DNA of 21,445 bases from a virus: the IMG/VR virus record IMGVR_UViG_3300044613_002045, positions 1 through 21,445 of that record; one strand, 5' to 3'. Every line of letters starts with the position of its first letter. Position 1 is the stretch's first letter. Positions 3,504-17,246 of this stretch are shown piece after piece. The notes beneath the pieces were generated by a model. The model had not been told where the DNA came from and made no database searches. It was given only the letters and a program-made list of their open reading frames with translations. The position numbers were made by a program, and so were the translations under genes.

Positions 3504-4474
3504 GAACAGCATTGGTAACTGGTGGTGCAGGTTATCTTGGAAGTCATTTGGCAAAAGCACTGAAAAAAGCAGGCTACACTACAGTCTGCTTTGATATAAA
3601 ATCGCCACGCAACATGGTTTATTGGAACGATGCGTTCATCGGTGATGTTCGTGAATCAACTTTAGGGTGGCCATTCAATCAATATAAAATTGATGTAGTA
3701 TTCCATCTGGCAGGTCGTATTGAAGTTGGTGAATCAGTTAAACATCCCGAAGAGTTTTGGGATGTCAATGTGGGCGGCACGTGCAATCTACTTAACACAA
3801 TGAGGAAATTTGATGTTAGTAATATTGTTTATTCTTCTACTGCCGGCGTTTATCGTTCTCAGTTTACCAGCCTCTCTGAGAAAGCCGAAATAGATAACAA
3901 CAATCCGTATGCCAATAGTAAGTATGCTGCTGAGTGTGCAATTCGTGACGCAAAAGTGAATCATATCATCTTTCGTTTCTTTAATCTTGCTGGTGCCGAT
4001 CCTGATGGTGAGATGGGTGAAGACCACCATCCAGAAACACACTTGATTCCGCTAATGTTCAAAAGTCTAAATAACGAAAAGTTCATCGTATATGGAAATG
4101 ATTATCAAACGGCAGATGGCACTTGCATACGTGACTATGTTCATGTGTGTGATGTCGCTAATGCACATTTATTGGCTGATGAATATTTACAGAAAAAAGG
4201 AAAAAATCAACCTAGCCTATTCAATCTAGGCACTGGTAAAGGTTATACTGTACTACAAGTGATTGATGCTGCTAAACAGGAACTTGGCGTTCCAATTCAA
4301 TACACAATCGGTAAACGAAGAGAGGGTGACCCACGAAGGCTAGTTGCCAACTCTGATGCCGCCAAAGAACATCTTAATTTCAAACCCAAGCACGATTTAA
4401 AATCCATTTTGAGAACGGCGTATAATTGGTATGAGCGACAACAAAGAGAACGAAGTACAGGAAGTACAGTTTGA
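3500..4474 (+). CDS. NAD-dependent sugar epimerase, UDP-glucose 4-epimerase-like (extended SDR)
   Basis: The 324-residue extended short-chain dehydrogenase begins ALVTGGAGYLGSH with the Rossmann GxxGxxG at residues 8-14. GDVRE at 48-52, FHLAGRIEVGESV at 68-80 and the catalytic SST (112-114) with Tyr137-x-x-x-Lys141 in PYANSKYAAE follow. RFFNLAGADP and a nucleotide-sugar tail (KRREGDPRRLVANSDAAK) match the GalE group closely; GalE proteins are about 338 residues. It probably interconverts the C4 configuration of a UDP-hexose for the neighbouring transferase. The last 44 nt overlap the ClpP-like gene in another frame. Confidence 0.9.
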   Translation: MRTALVTGGAGYLGSHLAKALKKAGYTTVCFDIKSPRNMVYWNDAFIGDVRESTLGWPFNQYKIDVVFHLAGRIEVGESVKHPEEFWDVNVGGTCNLLNTMRKFDVSNIVYSSTAGVYRSQFTSLSEKAEIDNNNPYANSKYAAECAIRDAKVNHIIFRFFNLAGADPDGEMGEDHHPETHLIPLMFKSLNNEKFIVYGNDYQTADGTCIRDYVHVCDVANAHLLADEYLQKKGKNQPSLFNLGTGKGYTVLQVIDAAKQELGVPIQYTIGKRREGDPRRLVANSDAAKEHLNFKPKHDLKSILRTAYNWYERQQRERSTGSTV

Positions 4475-4976
4475 ACACTATGCCCATTTTTTGTCTGGCA
4501 GCATTGAGCCGACAAACATTGAGGCTGCGTCACGCTGGTTACTTTATGCAAAATTCAACAAGATTGAAAAGCCACTGACGCTACACATTAACTCAGAGGG
4601 TGGCAATCTAGGTGATGCTATAGGTCTTGCTGACTTGATGTTGGGTTTGGGCTTGCCCGTTCGCACACTTGCATATGGCAATCTAATGAGTGCTGCATTT
4701 GTGGTGTTCGCTGCTGGTGAAAAAGGTTATCGTGCAGTAGGCAAAAACACGACAATCATGATTCATCAATTCAATGATGAGATGGGTGGCAAGTATCATG
4801 ACATGCGGGCTTATGCTAAAGAGTGTGACAGGTATCATCATAAAATGGCAAAGATTCTTTCCGACTGTTCTAAACTGTCGGTCAAGGATGTGAAATCAAA
4901 GTTTCTGCGACCAACTGATGTTTGGCTGACCGCAGAGGATTTGGTAGAGTATGGTGTAGCAGATATTATCTTTTAG
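4431..4976 (+). CDS. ClpP-like serine peptidase (S14) with intact catalytic triad
   Basis: The 181-residue protein is close to the core length of bacterial ClpP. It shows FLSGSIEP (about 20-27, the family FL.g.I.d), LHINSEGGNLGDAIGLADLM (51-70), YGNLMSAAFVVFAAG with nucleophile Ser87, TTIMIHQF with His112, and LRPTDVWLTAEDLVEYGVAD with Asp163 aligned to the catalytic Asp of ClpP. All three catalytic residues are therefore present. There is no propeptide of note and no ATPase partner in the window. Phage roles considered for such proteins are prohead processing, or assembling with host ClpX/ClpA. The start at 4431 lies 44 nt inside the epimerase gene and lacks a strong ribosome site, so expression is probably coupled. 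An ssrA-type degradation tag is encoded in this same window. Confidence 0.92.
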   Translation: MSDNKENEVQEVQFEHYAHFLSGSIEPTNIEAASRWLLYAKFNKIEKPLTLHINSEGGNLGDAIGLADLMLGLGLPVRTLAYGNLMSAAFVVFAAGEKGYRAVGKNTTIMIHQFNDEMGGKYHDMRAYAKECDRYHHKMAKILSDCSKLSVKDVKSKFLRPTDVWLTAEDLVEYGVADIIF

Positions 4977-10870: not shown

Positions 10871-11053
10871 ATGGCTAAAAAATCTTTGCAGAAAAAAGTA
10901 GCACTTCTGAATGAGTACATCACCAGAGAAATTGAAAAAGAAATGACCACAGAATTATCACAAATAGAAAAAGACAATATCACTGCAAAGATAGAAAAGA
11001 AGTATCCTAGACAAAGTTATCCACATCACAGCCGAAATCATTACTTCACATAA
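10871..11053 (+). CDS. Small basic helical protein, unknown
   Basis: The protein has 60 residues, with AGGGGC at about 10860-10865 as ribosome site before ATG 10871. It is mostly helical and charged (KKSLQKKVALLNEYITREIE, TELSQIEKDNITAKIEKKYP), ending in a His/Tyr-rich tail. No family is recognised. It overlaps the exonuclease gene by one base (TAATG), which supports it being a real gene in this operon. Confidence 0.65.
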   Translation: MAKKSLQKKVALLNEYITREIEKEMTTELSQIEKDNITAKIEKKYPRQSYPHHSRNHYFT

Positions 11054-11718
11054 TGCGAACATTTGAACATGTAATTTTACCCCAATTACAATTTGACTTA
11101 AAAGCAGAAACCACCGATAGTGGTAGACTGTATACTACGCCAGAAGGCAATCAGTATAAGTCTATCACTACGGTGCTTTCGCATTATGGCAAGAAGGCAC
11201 TCTATGAGTGGCGACAGGCTGTAGGTGAAGAACGAGCAAACGAGATATCACGCAAGGCATCAAATCGTGGCACAAAGGTACACAAGATTTGTGAAGACTA
11301 CATCAACAATGAAATAAACGATTTTAGAATGCAGTTGTTGATGCCTGATCTGAAGGAATTATTCTTCAAGATTAAGCCGATTATTGATGAGAATGTTGGT
11401 AATGTTTATTCACAAGAACAAGCACTGTATTCTGACAAGTATCGTATTGCTGGTCGTGTAGACTTGATTGCTGAATGGAATGGTAAGTTATCAGTCATTG
11501 ACTTCAAAACATCCACGAAACAGAAAGATGAAGATTACATTCAGAATTATTTTATGCAGTGTACAGCATATGCGTTAATGTTTGCTGAACGAACTGGTAT
11601 TTGGATTGATGACATCGTAGTGCTGATTGCTACCGAAGAAGGTCCAGCGCAGGTGTTTGAGCGACAGATTCACGATTATCGGCAACCGTTGATTGAAATG
11701 ATTAATAAATATGCTTGA
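11053..11718 (+). CDS. PD-(D/E)XK exonuclease (Cas4/RecB/MGME1-like)
   Basis: The 221-residue nuclease has the order RGTKVHKICEDY with His77, QEQALYS with Glu122, GRVDLIAEWNGKLSVIDFKT with Asp137 and Asp150-x-Lys152, and a following YIQNYFMQCTAYALM, the conserved Q.. .Y motif of RecB-type nucleases. All catalytic residues of the fold are present. Cysteines for a Cas4 iron-sulphur cluster are absent. This matches the small exonucleases of T4-like environmental phages, related to mitochondrial MGME1. A role in DNA end processing or host DNA breakdown is probable. The TGA stop lies inside a TTGACA hexamer. Confidence 0.88.
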   Translation: MRTFEHVILPQLQFDLKAETTDSGRLYTTPEGNQYKSITTVLSHYGKKALYEWRQAVGEERANEISRKASNRGTKVHKICEDYINNEINDFRMQLLMPDLKELFFKIKPIIDENVGNVYSQEQALYSDKYRIAGRVDLIAEWNGKLSVIDFKTSTKQKDEDYIQNYFMQCTAYALMFAERTGIWIDDIVVLIATEEGPAQVFERQIHDYRQPLIEMINKYA

Positions 11719-11733
11719 CATTTTGGGGGCATC

Positions 11734-12264
11734 ATGCTATCATTCAAACAACATACTCAATTAGATGAAGGCAATCCGCTGGCAAGATTAGCTAAACATG
11801 CTGAAGAGGGTAGACACTATGCTGTTATTTCCTCACAGCGACCACATGATGAAGTATCGCCAGAACAAAATAAAAAGCATCATGAAGAACTTAAAAAGAA
11901 ACTGACTGCACAGGGCTACACTCACAAAGATGTTGAAGGTCATTGGGAAGGTGGTAAAGAGAAGTCTATACTGGTACATGCAAAAGGAAAGGGAGATGAA
12001 CACGGCAAACAACTACTCCATGATATTAAAAAACATGGAGAACATTATAATCAAGACTCAATCTTACATCATGATGGAAAAACAGCGACCTTACATGGGA
12101 CAAACAAAACAGGATTCCCAGGACACGGCAAGACAGAGAACGTAGGCAAGATGGCATTCAATAAGCCACATGCACCGTTTCAAACAGAAACAAAACCAAA
12201 ATCTGACAAGCCGCTGAAACCTGGTAGAACAAGTAAAGGTTCTGCAAGATTTACAACGGAGTGA
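11734..12264 (+). CDS. DUF3293-like conserved phage protein
   Basis: The 176-residue protein starts MLSFKQHTQLDEGNPLARLA behind a G-run at 11725-11729. It contains AVISSQR, an EELKKKLTAQGYTHKDVEGH segment, EGGKEKSILVHAKG, and YNQDSILHHDGKTATLHGTN followed by GFPGHGKTENVGKMAFN. From memory the order (long Tyr-containing helix, G.y..v.G, E.S..V, fgQdsv) resembles DUF3293 and its T4-like phage relatives. The Lys/Pro tail is low complexity. Function unknown. AATAAATA at 11704-11711, a possible late promoter variant, lies just upstream. Confidence 0.78.
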   Translation: MLSFKQHTQLDEGNPLARLAKHAEEGRHYAVISSQRPHDEVSPEQNKKHHEELKKKLTAQGYTHKDVEGHWEGGKEKSILVHAKGKGDEHGKQLLHDIKKHGEHYNQDSILHHDGKTATLHGTNKTGFPGHGKTENVGKMAFNKPHAPFQTETKPKSDKPLKPGRTSKGSARFTTE

Positions 12265-12266
12265 TA

Positions 12267-12437
12267 ATGCAAATAAGTGAGAAAGAATATTACGAAAGAC
12301 TTGATAGTTATTTGAGAGAATGTGGTCCAAATCTTGGCACCACATTTTTTGGTTCATGGGGCTGGTATGCAACAAAGCGAAATGAATTTAACGCAATAAT
12401 GAAAGAGGAAGGAATTGTTGTAATCCCTTCAAAGTGA
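12267..12437 (+). CDS. Small protein overlapping the tmRNA acceptor piece, unknown
   Basis: The protein has 56 residues from ATG 12267, two nt after the previous stop, with GGAG at 12258-12261. The sequence starts MQISEKEYYERLDSYLRECG and includes an aromatic FFGSWGWYATKRNEFN core and a KEEGIVVIPSK end. No family is recognised. The last codons (about 12423-12437) overlap the start of the tmRNA acceptor piece, including the strand predicted to form helix 2. The ribosome site and tight coupling favour a real gene; the overlap with a structural RNA is a caution. Confidence 0.6.
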   Translation: MQISEKEYYERLDSYLRECGPNLGTTFFGSWGWYATKRNEFNAIMKEEGIVVIPSK

Positions 12438-12478
12438 AGGCATTCTGGACGTGGGTTCGACTCCCACCTGGTCCACCA
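12423..12478 (+). ncRNA. ssrA: tmRNA acceptor piece (T arm, acceptor 3' strand, CCA)
   Basis: The conserved GGAC before the T arm is at 12447-12450. The T stem is GTGGG (12451-12455) with CCCAC (12463-12467) around TTCGACT. Acceptor strand CTGGTCC is followed by ACCA at 12475-12478. The upstream boundary is set at the CCCTTC strand of helix 2 and is uncertain by several bases. Confidence 0.9.
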
Positions 12479-12508
12479 AAAGCATATTATACATTGTGTG
12501 CTTCTGAT
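12479..12508 (+). other. tmRNA intervening spacer, expected to be excised
   Basis: Thirty nt join the encoded CCA to the acceptor 5' strand. AAGCA (12480-12484) can pair with TGCTT (12499-12503), so the precursor would be one hairpin continuing from the acceptor stem. In known permuted tmRNAs this segment is removed to give two RNAs held together by base pairing; removal here is inferred. Confidence 0.75.
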
Positions 12509-12675
12509 GGGCCAGACATGGTTTCGACAGGGTGAGATAGTGGAGAAGGCAACACAGTAGGCGATGACTGTAAATCAAGCAAATTAGTAAACGCAAATGA
12601 TGAGCGTTACGCACTAGCAGCCTAAATTGCTAGTTGGGGTTTCGGGAGTGTCCTTATTACCAAATCACTCCCACC
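12509..12675 (+). ncRNA. ssrA: tmRNA coding piece (acceptor 5' strand, D-like loop, PK1, tag frame)
   Basis: The piece opens GGGCCAGACATGGTTTCGAC, matching the conserved tmRNA 5' end with its TTCGAC motif. A PK1-type stem is ACAGT (12554-12558) with ACTGT (12567-12571). After the tag, ACTAGCA (12613-12619) pairs with TGCTAGT (12628-12634), putting the tag stop in the helix 5 loop as in other tmRNAs. GGGAGTG (12644-12650) pairs with CACTCCC (12666-12672), and TTGG (12634-12637) with CCAA (12660-12663) could add a pseudoknot. The 3' end is estimated. Confidence 0.88.
12593..12625 (+). other. tmRNA tag reading frame, ANDERYALAA
   Basis: The resume codon GCA is at 12593-12595 and the stop TAA at 12623-12625. 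The peptide ANDERYALAA differs from the E. coli tag ANDENYALAA only at residue 5 and ends in LAA, the ClpX-recognised end. Position -4 relative to the resume codon is A, as in the E. coli tmRNA (A86). Arg at residue 5 recalls betaproteobacterial tags. Confidence 0.93.
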
Positions 12676-12689
12676 TAATTTTATACATT

Positions 12690-13358
12690 ATGAAAATTTA
12701 CACATCAAAGTATCGTAATCATTGGATTTCTCCATACACAATACTGGAGAAAGTTTTCTTTTGGCGTGAAATTGATTATGATGAACCTATCATTAAAAAA
12801 CTTAAAAATATCCTAGAGCCTTTCTGTACAGCATGGATGAAGTTTCTTGATTTTATTCATCCACGAATCAACTACGTCAAGATTGACTATTGGGATGTGT
12901 GGAATGTGGATCACACACTCTCACCAATTATTCTTCCGATGTTGAAGAAACTCAAAGAAACAAAACACGGTTCTGGCTTTGTTGATTTGGAAGATGTACC
13001 AGAACACCTTCGTTACACAACAAAAGAAGATTGGGACTCACAACAATCATTTGCTTTCTATCACGAACATGAGATCAAAGAGGGTGAAGCAGATATTCAT
13101 GCACGTTGGAATTGGGTACTTGATGAAATGATTTTTGCCTTTGAGCATCTTGTCGATGATTCATGGGAAGAAGAATATAGTTCTGGTGAAATTAATATGA
13201 TATTTGTACCTGATGATGAAAATCCAAAACTTAAACGAATGGAACACGGACCGAATCACACATATGTTTGTGATTATGAAGGTATAATGAAAGTGCATGA
13301 ACGCATAGATAATGGTCTCCGATTATTTGGTAAATATTACCGCAATCTGTGGGATTAA
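12690..13358 (+). CDS. Conserved T4-like phage protein, unknown
   Basis: The protein has 222 residues from ATG 12690; the longer frame from 12627 is rejected because it starts inside the tmRNA coding piece. It starts MKIYTSKYRNHWISPYTILE and is very rich in Trp, Tyr and acidic residues, with IDYWDVWNVDHTLSPIILPM in the middle, ARWNWVLDEMIFAFEHL later and a charged tail. From memory close relatives occur in many T4-like environmental phages without assigned function. There is no signal peptide or clear membrane segment. No good ribosome site precedes it, only the tmRNA end and an AT-rich gap. Confidence 0.85.
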   Translation: MKIYTSKYRNHWISPYTILEKVFFWREIDYDEPIIKKLKNILEPFCTAWMKFLDFIHPRINYVKIDYWDVWNVDHTLSPIILPMLKKLKETKHGSGFVDLEDVPEHLRYTTKEDWDSQQSFAFYHEHEIKEGEADIHARWNWVLDEMIFAFEHLVDDSWEEEYSSGEINMIFVPDDENPKLKRMEHGPNHTYVCDYEGIMKVHERIDNGLRLFGKYYRNLWD

Positions 13359-14563: not shown

Positions 14564-15013
14564 ATGGATTTTGATAACGACAATTATGAGTCTCATAATT
14601 TTACAATTCGATTTGATTCAAATGATGGCAAAAGAAGTCTTGAGATGAACTTTAGTGAATTATTTCTTGATGACATCCTCAATCAATTTAGAGACTTTCT
14701 AAGAGGATGTGGCTACGAAATTGATGGACAGATTGCCGTAATTCCTTGGGATCAAGAGGATCCAGAAGATCCTAAACAATATCAAAAAGAGTTTAGTTTT
14801 GAAAATATTCCAAATAATAATTGGCCGTTTGGTAATTTGAAAACTGAATCTATTCAAGCACTGACTACTGCCGACATAGCCGCTATAAAGCCGATTGATT
14901 TGTCTTCATTGAATCAGTATCCTACAATGGTACCTTTAACTACCCAGCAAATGTATTCATGGTCAACTGATATGCCAGGAACATTAGGTGGTGCAAAGAT
15001 GTCGTACAGATAA
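14564..15013 (+). CDS. Acidic protein of unknown function
   Basis: The 149-residue protein is preceded by AGGGG at about 14550-14554. The N-terminal part (NFTIRFDSNDGKRSLEMNFS, then ELFLDDILNQFRDFLRGCGY) looks like a beta strand pair and helix. The middle is acidic (DQEDPEDPKQYQ). The C-terminal third is Ser/Thr/Pro-rich with a MYSWSTDMPGTLGGA end. I do not recognise the family. It sits at the head of the gp33-gp59 cluster and ends one nt before the gp33-like ATG. Confidence 0.75.
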   Translation: MDFDNDNYESHNFTIRFDSNDGKRSLEMNFSELFLDDILNQFRDFLRGCGYEIDGQIAVIPWDQEDPEDPKQYQKEFSFENIPNNNWPFGNLKTESIQALTTADIAAIKPIDLSSLNQYPTMVPLTTQQMYSWSTDMPGTLGGAKMSYR

Positions 15014-15014
15014 A

Positions 15015-15239
15015 ATGCCAACTAAAGATGAAATGCTGAAGTTTTCTTTGCAGATAGAGCGGCTGGTAGCCAATACAGATTACACATATCTTGAGGCTAT
15101 CACCGAACACTGCAAAGGAACTGGTTTGGAAATTGAGATTGCTGCTTCACTCATTACACCAAATCTCAAGGCAAAAATACATGAACAAGCGGAGCGTTTA
15201 AATATGTTGAAGGTGAAAGGCAATCGTTTACCGATATGA
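15015..15239 (+). CDS. 33: Late transcription coactivator, gp33-like (putative)
   Basis: The protein has 74 residues from ATG 15015; the earlier in-frame GTG would start inside the previous gene. The sequence MPTKDEMLKFSLQIERLVAN, followed by DYTYLEAITEHCKGTGLEIE and AASLITPNLKAKIHEQAERL, matches my memory of the short gp33-type proteins of marine and freshwater T4-like phages, shorter than T4 gp33 (112 residues). In T4, gp33 bridges RNA polymerase and the sliding clamp for late transcription at TATAAATA promoters. Its position directly before gp59 repeats the T4 neighbourhood. The ATGA overlap with gp59 shows coupling. Confidence 0.75.
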   Translation: MPTKDEMLKFSLQIERLVANTDYTYLEAITEHCKGTGLEIEIAASLITPNLKAKIHEQAERLNMLKVKGNRLPI

Positions 15240-15847
15240 CGGGATATGAAGCATTTTGTTTATACACTTCTCTTAAACTCCACTTCAATTCAGATTCTTA
15301 CGATTACTTTAAGTATAATGGTAAAGTAAGCACAAGCATTGGTGCATTTGAGAATCGCAAAGATAAGTGGCACTTTTACAAACTCAGCCGGAGATTCACA
15401 AATGATGACATATGCCGTGATTATATTGTTGCTAATTTGGTGTTTAACCATGATGTATGGATAGGTCATCTTCTGACCAATGATGCCGATATTGAATATC
15501 GTAAGCGTCAGAAGATTATTCAGTCTTTGACATATACCTTTACAAATGAGATTGAATCATTGATGAGTCAGGAGAGCCCAAATGATTCATTAATGGTACA
15601 TGATGGTGAGTATCCAGTATTGCTACAGAAACTTTTACATAATGAAATTTCACTTGAATCAATTTGTATCCTGAATAAGATACTCAACTTTTTGCCGTTA
15701 TGGGATAAGAAAATCGGTGACACGATTCATTATCCAAACATCAGTCGCAAGATAAAGAAGTACACACCGTTTATACCATTCGAACCAACAAAATACAAAC
15801 TTATACTCAAAAAGGAATACGATGCGAATACAGAAAATATATCTTGA
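15236..15847 (+). CDS. 59: DNA helicase loader, gp59-like
   Basis: The 203-residue protein (T4 gp59 has 217) begins TGYEAFCLYTSLKLHFNSDS and YDYFKYNGKV, matching the T4 pattern of ..VYKLYLMIKQHMN.KYDVIKYN. A KDKWHFYKLSRRF segment corresponds to RDKYFFQKLSEKY, and VANLVFNHDVWIGHL corresponds to ISNLVANQDAWIGDI. gp59 loads the gp41 helicase onto gp32-coated forks. The helical C-terminal half is less conserved. It sits between gp33-like and the HAD gene near gp32, close to the T4 order 32-59-33. Its last 26 nt overlap the HAD gene. Confidence 0.88.
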   Translation: MTGYEAFCLYTSLKLHFNSDSYDYFKYNGKVSTSIGAFENRKDKWHFYKLSRRFTNDDICRDYIVANLVFNHDVWIGHLLTNDADIEYRKRQKIIQSLTYTFTNEIESLMSQESPNDSLMVHDGEYPVLLQKLLHNEISLESICILNKILNFLPLWDKKIGDTIHYPNISRKIKKYTPFIPFEPTKYKLILKKEYDANTENIS

Positions 15848-16388: not shown

Positions 16389-17246
16389 ATGGCAGACTTT
16401 TCCAGTCTCAAACGCAATCGCAATTCGTTCGACAAACTCACCAAAGCGATTGAATCAATCAATACTCCAGCAGAAGGTTCTAAAGACGATGATCGTTTTT
16501 GGCAACCAGAAACAGACAAAGCTGGTAACGGTATGGCAGTTATTCGTTTTCTGCCAGCACCAGCAGCAGATGGTGATGATGCGCTTCCCTGGGTTCGTGT
16601 CTTCAATCATGGCTTTCAAGGTCCAGGTGGCTGGTACATTGAAAACTCTTTGACTACTTTGAATCAGAAAGATCCAGTATCAGAATACAATTCTGTTCTG
16701 TGGAATTCTGGCATCGAAGCAAACAAAGAAATTGCACGTAAACAAAAACGCCGTCTTACATATATTTCAAATGTGCTTATCGTTTCTGATCCTAAGAACC
16801 CAGAGAACGAAGGTCAAATCAAACTATACAAGTTTGGTAAGAAAATCTTCGATAAACTGACTGAAGCAATGAACCCACAGTTTGAAGATGAAAAGGCAAT
16901 CAATCCTTTTGATTTTTGGGATGGTGCAAACTTCAAAATCAAGATTCGTCAAGTTGAAGGTTATCGCAACTACGACAAGTCTGAGTTTGAATCTTCTTCA
17001 CAACTATTCGATGGTGATGACGCTAAACTTGAAGCACTCTGGAAAAAAGAACACTCACTTAAAGAGTTTCTTGATCCAAAACATTTCAAGTCATATGATG
17101 TGTTAAAGGCAAAACTTGATAAGGTTCTTGGTCTTGATGGTGTTGCTCCGGTGTCGAAGACTAAGGCTGAAGACTTCACACCACGTTCTTCACCAGATAT
17201 TGAAGATGAAGAACTTGATTACTTCAAGTCTCTAGCAGAAGATTAA
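16389..17246 (+). CDS. 32: Single-stranded DNA-binding protein gp32
   Basis: The 285-residue protein (T4 gp32 has 301) has a basic N-terminus (SSLKRNRNSFDKLTK, the cooperativity region), the OB core with GMAVIRFLPAP, RRLTYISNVLIVSDPKNPEN and EGQIKLYKFGKKIFDKL, and an acidic C-terminus (SSPDIEDEELDYF) that in T4 recruits gp59 and other partners. The place where T4 has CPVC for its zinc reads DPVS (95-98), and no cysteine remains, so the zinc subdomain is lost. The gene has its own promoter and a strong terminator, implying a high-level monocistronic mRNA. Confidence 0.94.
   Translation: MADFSSLKRNRNSFDKLTKAIESINTPAEGSKDDDRFWQPETDKAGNGMAVIRFLPAPAADGDDALPWVRVFNHGFQGPGGWYIENSLTTLNQKDPVSEYNSVLWNSGIEANKEIARKQKRRLTYISNVLIVSDPKNPENEGQIKLYKFGKKIFDKLTEAMNPQFEDEKAINPFDFWDGANFKIKIRQVEGYRNYDKSEFESSSQLFDGDDAKLEALWKKEHSLKEFLDPKHFKSYDVLKAKLDKVLGLDGVAPVSKTKAEDFTPRSSPDIEDEELDYFKSLAED

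Follow-up and report, generated by a model that had tools for sequence, protein, structure and literature searches.

Gene content of the locus

The window, i.e. the whole stretch of viral DNA that was analysed (21,445 nucleotides), is a 21 kb fragment of its genome, and related records used for comparison may be incomplete. Matches to phrog and Pfam families identified gp32, a gp33-like coactivator and gp59 near the tmRNA gene, and the carrier is a T4-like phage, as had been proposed. The tmRNA gene is located between a PDDEXK nuclease gene and the gp33-gp59-gp32 genes on the same strand. The tmRNA gene of phage Melnitz occupies the same slot, which was also common to many of the permuted-tmRNA loci that were fetched. 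The genes that define the slot are as follows.

11053-11718, plus strand: PDDEXK exonuclease, conserved; upstream landmark of the slot
12690-13358, plus strand: phrog_11543 gene directly downstream of the tmRNA; variable between close relatives
14988-15239, plus strand: late-transcription coactivator (gp33-like, PF16805); downstream landmark
15236-15847, plus strand: gp59 helicase loader (PF08993/PF08994); downstream landmark
16389-17246, plus strand: gp32 single-strand DNA binding protein (phrog_224); downstream landmark

A member of the S-adenosylmethionine lyase family (PF23780, 48 bits), with a possible role in anti-restriction, is encoded just upstream of the tmRNA at 11734-12264 (+). It is followed by a 56-residue open frame at 12267-12437 (+), which runs with its final codons and stop into the beginning of the tmRNA core (from 12416). 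Near the tmRNA, no plus-strand terminator was detected in a scan for promoters and terminators, and promoters did not exceed the number expected by chance. The gene at 12690-13358 was about 50-100% identical between phages with other neighbours about 95% identical, and may belong to a cassette that is exchanged. No match to cultured phages was obtained by megablast of the window. In the cultured phages reached via the 12690 gene, phiM12 and Limnohabitans phage DC31, the context was different and no tmRNA was annotated.

Identification and structure of the tmRNA gene

Positions 12365-12678 (+) were matched by Rfam to the beta_tmRNA model RF01850 with 196.9 bits (E 2.2e-62) over the full model (1-331). 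The tmRNA_permuted model RF04321 matched positions 12416-12625 with 156 bits (E 1.4e-31). Both scores were above the gathering cut-offs of 84 and 47 bits, respectively, while the alpha_tmRNA model RF01849 gave 48 bits, which is below its cut-off. The assignment to the beta lineage follows from the Rfam run keeping the best model of the clan, the cyanobacterial model not being scored apart. ARAGORN called a 'tmRNA*' (permuted) at 12386-12716 with the tag ANDERYALAA*. A circularly permuted tmRNA with this tag had been proposed by the sequence-only reading, which had also named the tmRNA models and ARAGORN as a check, and it was confirmed by all three matches. One of the models named, RF02544, is the mitochondrial and not the cyanobacterial tmRNA model; the latter is RF01851.

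The order of the parts was that of a permuted gene, with the T arm, the acceptor 3' strand and the CCA all located 5' of the acceptor 5' strand, and the features expected for alanylation, G3-U70 and A73 (A at 12475), were present. The acceptor stem, G3-U70, A73, CCA, T arm, PK1 hairpin and tag frame, as well as the D-like motif, were assigned from the sequence, the former seven at the positions first given for them. The placement of the tag stop in a helix-5-type loop was also borne out, as TAA is enclosed by a stem. The gene does lie at 12423-12675, the extent first claimed, but the pairing of 12416-12420 with 12550-12554 moves the start of its core about 7 nt upstream, to about 12416. The window thus contains a real, complete, beta-type tmRNA gene of the permuted two-piece type. 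Its parts are listed below; pairing values refer to the alignment described in the next section.

12365-12678, plus strand: whole permuted tmRNA gene, precursor including flanks (RF01850 match)
12416-12478, plus strand: acceptor piece with helix-2 strand, T arm, acceptor 3' strand, A73 and CCA; 5' end predicted
12416-12420/12550-12554, plus strand: helix, paired in 90.5% of alignment cells
12451-12467, plus strand: T arm, 5-bp stem (12451-12455/12463-12467) and loop TTCGACT
12468-12474, plus strand: acceptor stem 3' strand, pairing with 12509-12515; G3-U70 is 12511/12472
12475 and 12476-12478, plus strand: A73 and encoded CCA
12479-12508, plus strand: intervening segment, predicted to be excised during processing; folds as a hairpin
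12509-12672, plus strand: coding piece with acceptor 5' strand, GGTTTCGAC, PK1, tag and 3' hairpin; 3' end predicted
12509-12515, plus strand: acceptor 5' strand
12520-12528, plus strand: D-like motif GGTTTCGAC
12555-12570, plus strand: PK1-type hairpin, 83% of cells paired, double changes in 4 of 4 pairs
12593-12622, plus strand: tag frame ANDERYALAA (GCA..GCC), followed by TAA at 12623-12625 (ARAGORN, coding constraint)
12614-12619/12628-12633, plus strand: helix-5-type stem with the stop codon inside its loop
12644-12672, plus strand: 3' hairpin GGGAGTG/CACTCCC, weaker covariation

The acceptor stem consists of the pairs G1-C72, G2-C71, G3-U70, C4-G69, C5-G68, A6-U67 and G7-C66.

Selection on structure and tag

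Covariation was determined in an alignment of 21 tmRNAs (20 from phages and one from Cupriavidus), in which pairs were counted for the structure read from the window. This structure was paired in 87.8% of the alignment cells, and 28 of its 41 pairs showed changes on both sides. The covariation score was 0.390, compared with 0.150 for shuffled alignments and 0.06-0.11 when the structure was slid. None of 500 shuffles reached the score, and the reading of these helices as chance hairpins was rejected on this covariation in the homologues together with the CM E-values. The acceptor stem, T stem and helix 2 were 98-100% paired despite letter changes; the T stem was paired in 100% and the acceptor stem in 98% of cells, each with double changes in three pairs. 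The G3-U70 pair was invariant, being U-G in 21 of 21 tmRNAs. Support was weaker for helix 5 and the 3' hairpin (63-70% paired), and folding of the window sequence alone gave a modest signal (z -2.4 against shuffles).

Single-base differences between similar tags were synonymous in 81% of cases compared with 28% expected, a figure that rests on non-independent pairs. The N at tag position 2 and the terminal A-A were invariant across 24 ten-residue tags, and nearly all tags ended with an ordinary LAA-type signal. Selection acts on both the RNA and the coding frame of the window tmRNA.

These results bear on the idea that the phage tmRNA is a decoy, which titrates SmpB and blocks host trans-translation like the DS6A RNA. 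The inhibitory TLD-only RNA of mycobacteriophage DS6A is a precedent (PMC4131195, PMC11915505), and all phage-group records searched lacked an SmpB of their own. A decoy, however, needs no tag, while the relatives retain a tag frame in which most changes are synonymous, and PK1 is conserved as well. A tag-less decoy of the DS6A type was rejected, as the window tmRNA has a tag frame, and we regard a decoy function as very unlikely.

Frequency and residence in the phage group

So that the choice of relatives did not depend on the tmRNA, they were fetched by means of the nuclease. The 48 loci that were kept had sufficient flank and a nuclease at least 59% identical; some of the contigs were near-copies. 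A tmRNA was detected by ARAGORN in 47 of these 48 relatives and by blastn in the remaining one, L218. The L218 tmRNA (11512-11880), which ARAGORN missed, has the T loop GGCAGTA and the D-like motif AGTTTCGAC. Its acceptor stem has changed in sequence but still pairs (CTCGTCC/GGGCGAG), and its tag, ANDNYYAMAA, is intact.

A single pattern scan of IMG/VR yielded at least 119 permuted-tmRNA stretches. It is common for aquatic T4-like phages to carry a permuted tmRNA; the earlier impression that one on a T4-like phage is uncommon did not hold in view of this number, of the occurrence in 48 of 48 close relatives and of the published phage Melnitz with the same slot.

Distances between the tmRNAs followed those between five flanking proteins (Mantel r 0.73-0.81, 0 of 2000 permutations for each), which argues for a long-resident phage gene and against a recent capture. 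The tmRNA of the window is a fixed core gene of its T4-like phage group in which it has long been resident. A recent accidental capture of host ssrA, or a relic of it left by prophage excision, either of them without function in the phage, might be considered because integration at ssrA is known and the intervening segment is still Cupriavidus-like. The tmRNA, however, has both ends intact, shows covariation, is fixed in the clade and has been inherited together with its neighbours, and no integrase was present among the window proteins assigned to families, which cover the part of the window ORFs that was searched. A prophage att relic was rejected, and a functionless host gene appears extremely improbable.

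Variation of tags and types at the slot

Phages with nucleases about 95% identical nevertheless had different tags, such as ANDERYALAA, ANDAFYGEERLAA and ANDNYYAMAA. Between close phages the tRNA-like domain was nearly constant, while the intervening segment and the 12690 gene differed. The tRNA-like domain was 75-100% identical at the DNA level even where the tag and the intervening segment were far less so.

The best lineage model varied as well: it was alpha for Melnitz, L143, L255, L262 and others, while the window and most others matched the beta model best. In both the gp32 and the nuclease tree, Melnitz (alpha) was the sister of L073 (beta). The fewest type changes were three on the gp32 tree and four on the nuclease tree, but these counts rest on best-model scores and poorly resolved deep forks, and the claim is limited to the at least two changes forced by well-supported branches. 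Replacement of the tmRNA at the slot, between alpha and beta type, is likely but not proven. Both the switching of the slot between the types, with at least two changes, and the different tags among phages with neighbours about 95% identical look new.

In L255 a manA RNA motif (RF01745, 62.8 bits; 2065-2240) is located directly after the alpha-type tmRNA, recalling the glutamine riboswitch of Melnitz.

Probable origin and host

The intervening segments of the window tmRNA and of Cupriavidus were recognisably homologous, with an alignment score of 33 against a mean of 5.6 for shuffles, none of which (0 of 2000) reached it. Together with the high beta score, this Cupriavidus-like segment makes descent from a betaproteobacterial-type tmRNA likely. 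In the tree the window tmRNA grouped with phage tmRNAs and not with Cupriavidus, which was the sole bacterial reference; deep forks were weak. The references were limited to three Cupriavidus plasmid copies because two exact-pattern scans of genome contigs gave no bacterial tmRNA, and a plasmid search with the Cupriavidus tmRNA returned only Cupriavidus matches. The Cupriavidus plasmids and megaplasmids L122, L123 and L124 carry seemingly complete copies of ssrA that are unannotated in the PLSDB table.

The sequence-only reading had assumed capture from, and function in, a betaproteobacterial host. The beta-type ancestry was upheld; capture from the present host and function in a betaproteobacterial host were not demonstrated, the gene having long co-evolved with its neighbours. 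The tmRNA type is a weak guide to the host because phages isolated on Xanthomonas and on Synechococcus elongatus match the beta model, while Melnitz, with a methylophilalean host, is of the alpha type. The type alone therefore does not name the host.

Proposed function

The gene, one of the resident core genes of a T4-like phage group, most probably encodes a functional beta-type permuted tmRNA that performs trans-translation with host factors. The precursor would be cut at the encoded CCA (12478) and before G1 (12509), and the acceptor and coding pieces would be held together by the acceptor stem and helix 2. Charging by the host alanyl-tRNA synthetase would occur via G3-U70, and host SmpB and EF-Tu would then carry the tmRNA to stalled ribosomes. 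Addition of ANDERYALAA to the nascent chain is expected to free the ribosome and to mark the product for proteolysis by the host, possibly partly by the phage. During infection the host's trans-translation might in this way be topped up or replaced while mRNAs are broken. It is plausible that the tmRNA keeps ribosomes recycling.

SmpB was not found in 39 distinct related records (26 plus 15, two shared) by a search that was positive in 10 of 14 control genomes. Host SmpB is thus probably used by the phage tmRNA.

The window also encodes a ClpP-family protease at 4431-4976 (+; PF00574, 99 bits), in which the catalytic Ser, His and Asp line up with those of solved ClpP. ClpP was present in 10 of 10 tmRNA-bearing records of at least 60 kb from the nuclease search and absent from Melnitz and the tmRNA-bearing records G080 and G081; ClpX was not found in 13 records. 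A link between ClpP and the tmRNA is only a suggestion. It relates to the view that the main purpose is not ribosome rescue but tag-directed proteolysis, either for amino-acid recycling or with a tag preferred by a phage-run protease. Selective tagging of host proteins was proposed by the authors of the Melnitz study (PMC9004378), and both the window-encoded ClpP, with its regular occurrence in the large records, and the different tags of close phages would fit. On the other hand, the absences of ClpP and ClpX just given and the ordinary LAA-type ends of nearly all tags make proteolysis as the main purpose unlikely. We give somewhat more, though still little, credence to a dedicated slot in T4-like aquatic phages at which whole tmRNA types (alpha, beta) and tags are swapped, either to suit the host or to direct proteolysis; in some clades a phage ClpP would take part, and the phage would thereby run a share of its own tag-and-degrade system. 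Trans-translation with host factors remains the preferred function.

Comparison with known systems

The tmRNAs of the Bxz1 group, Wildcat and phage G have the standard one-piece form and belong to unrelated phages. These carriers of phage-encoded tmRNAs are mycobacteriophages (Bxz1 group, Wildcat) and a Bacillus phage (G) (PMC4131195). Two-piece forms made up 53 of 133 unique phage tmRNA structures, and 50 of these 53 were marine or aquatic (PMC9004378). An enlarged tmRNA database includes 79 sequences from phages; the merged permuted model that is now in Rfam is the work of the same authors (PMC11915505).

The closest published case is Melnitz EXVC044M (MZ577097), a T4-like phage of a marine methylotroph, for which a two-piece tmRNA was reported in 2022 (PMC9004378). 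It shares with the window the permuted tmRNA, the T4-like phage and the order PDDEXK nuclease, tmRNA, gp33, gp59 and gp32. The Melnitz tmRNA is, however, of the alpha type (RF01849, 106.7 bits) with the tag ANDNYVPVDYALAA, whereas that of the window is of the beta type, and a glutamine riboswitch lies downstream of the former, while Rfam reported no riboswitch in the window.

Betaproteobacterial ssrA (RF01850, Cupriavidus plasmids) resembles the window tmRNA in the permuted order, the acceptor and T-arm layout, the intervening segment and the ANDE..ALAA type of tag, but the Cupriavidus copies score 284-287 bits compared with 196.9 bits for the window. Phage-borne permuted tmRNAs with RF01850 as the best model are also present in Xanthomonas phage XacN1 and Synechococcus phage BUCT-ZZ01, with lower scores (107.8 and 94.5 bits); their slots were only partly compared with that of the window. 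In XacN1 (L126, 1274-3080) a GOLLD RNA lies about 1 kb downstream of the tmRNA, and both are unannotated. The tmRNA of BUCT-ZZ01, a cultured lake cyanophage, is likewise unannotated (L286, 5790-6190), and this phage was also the top cultured-phage match to the window ClpP among the matches listed.

Far from being a stray host gene, the tmRNA of these viruses is fixed and under selection; its slot is conserved, while its tags change quickly. Whether the phage's own trans-translation is needed in infection, and whether type and tag track host jumps, have become testable questions. The phage two-piece tmRNA is already known as a kind; what the window contributes is the presence of a beta-type member in the slot known from Melnitz, together with clade-wide fixation, likely type switching and varied tags.
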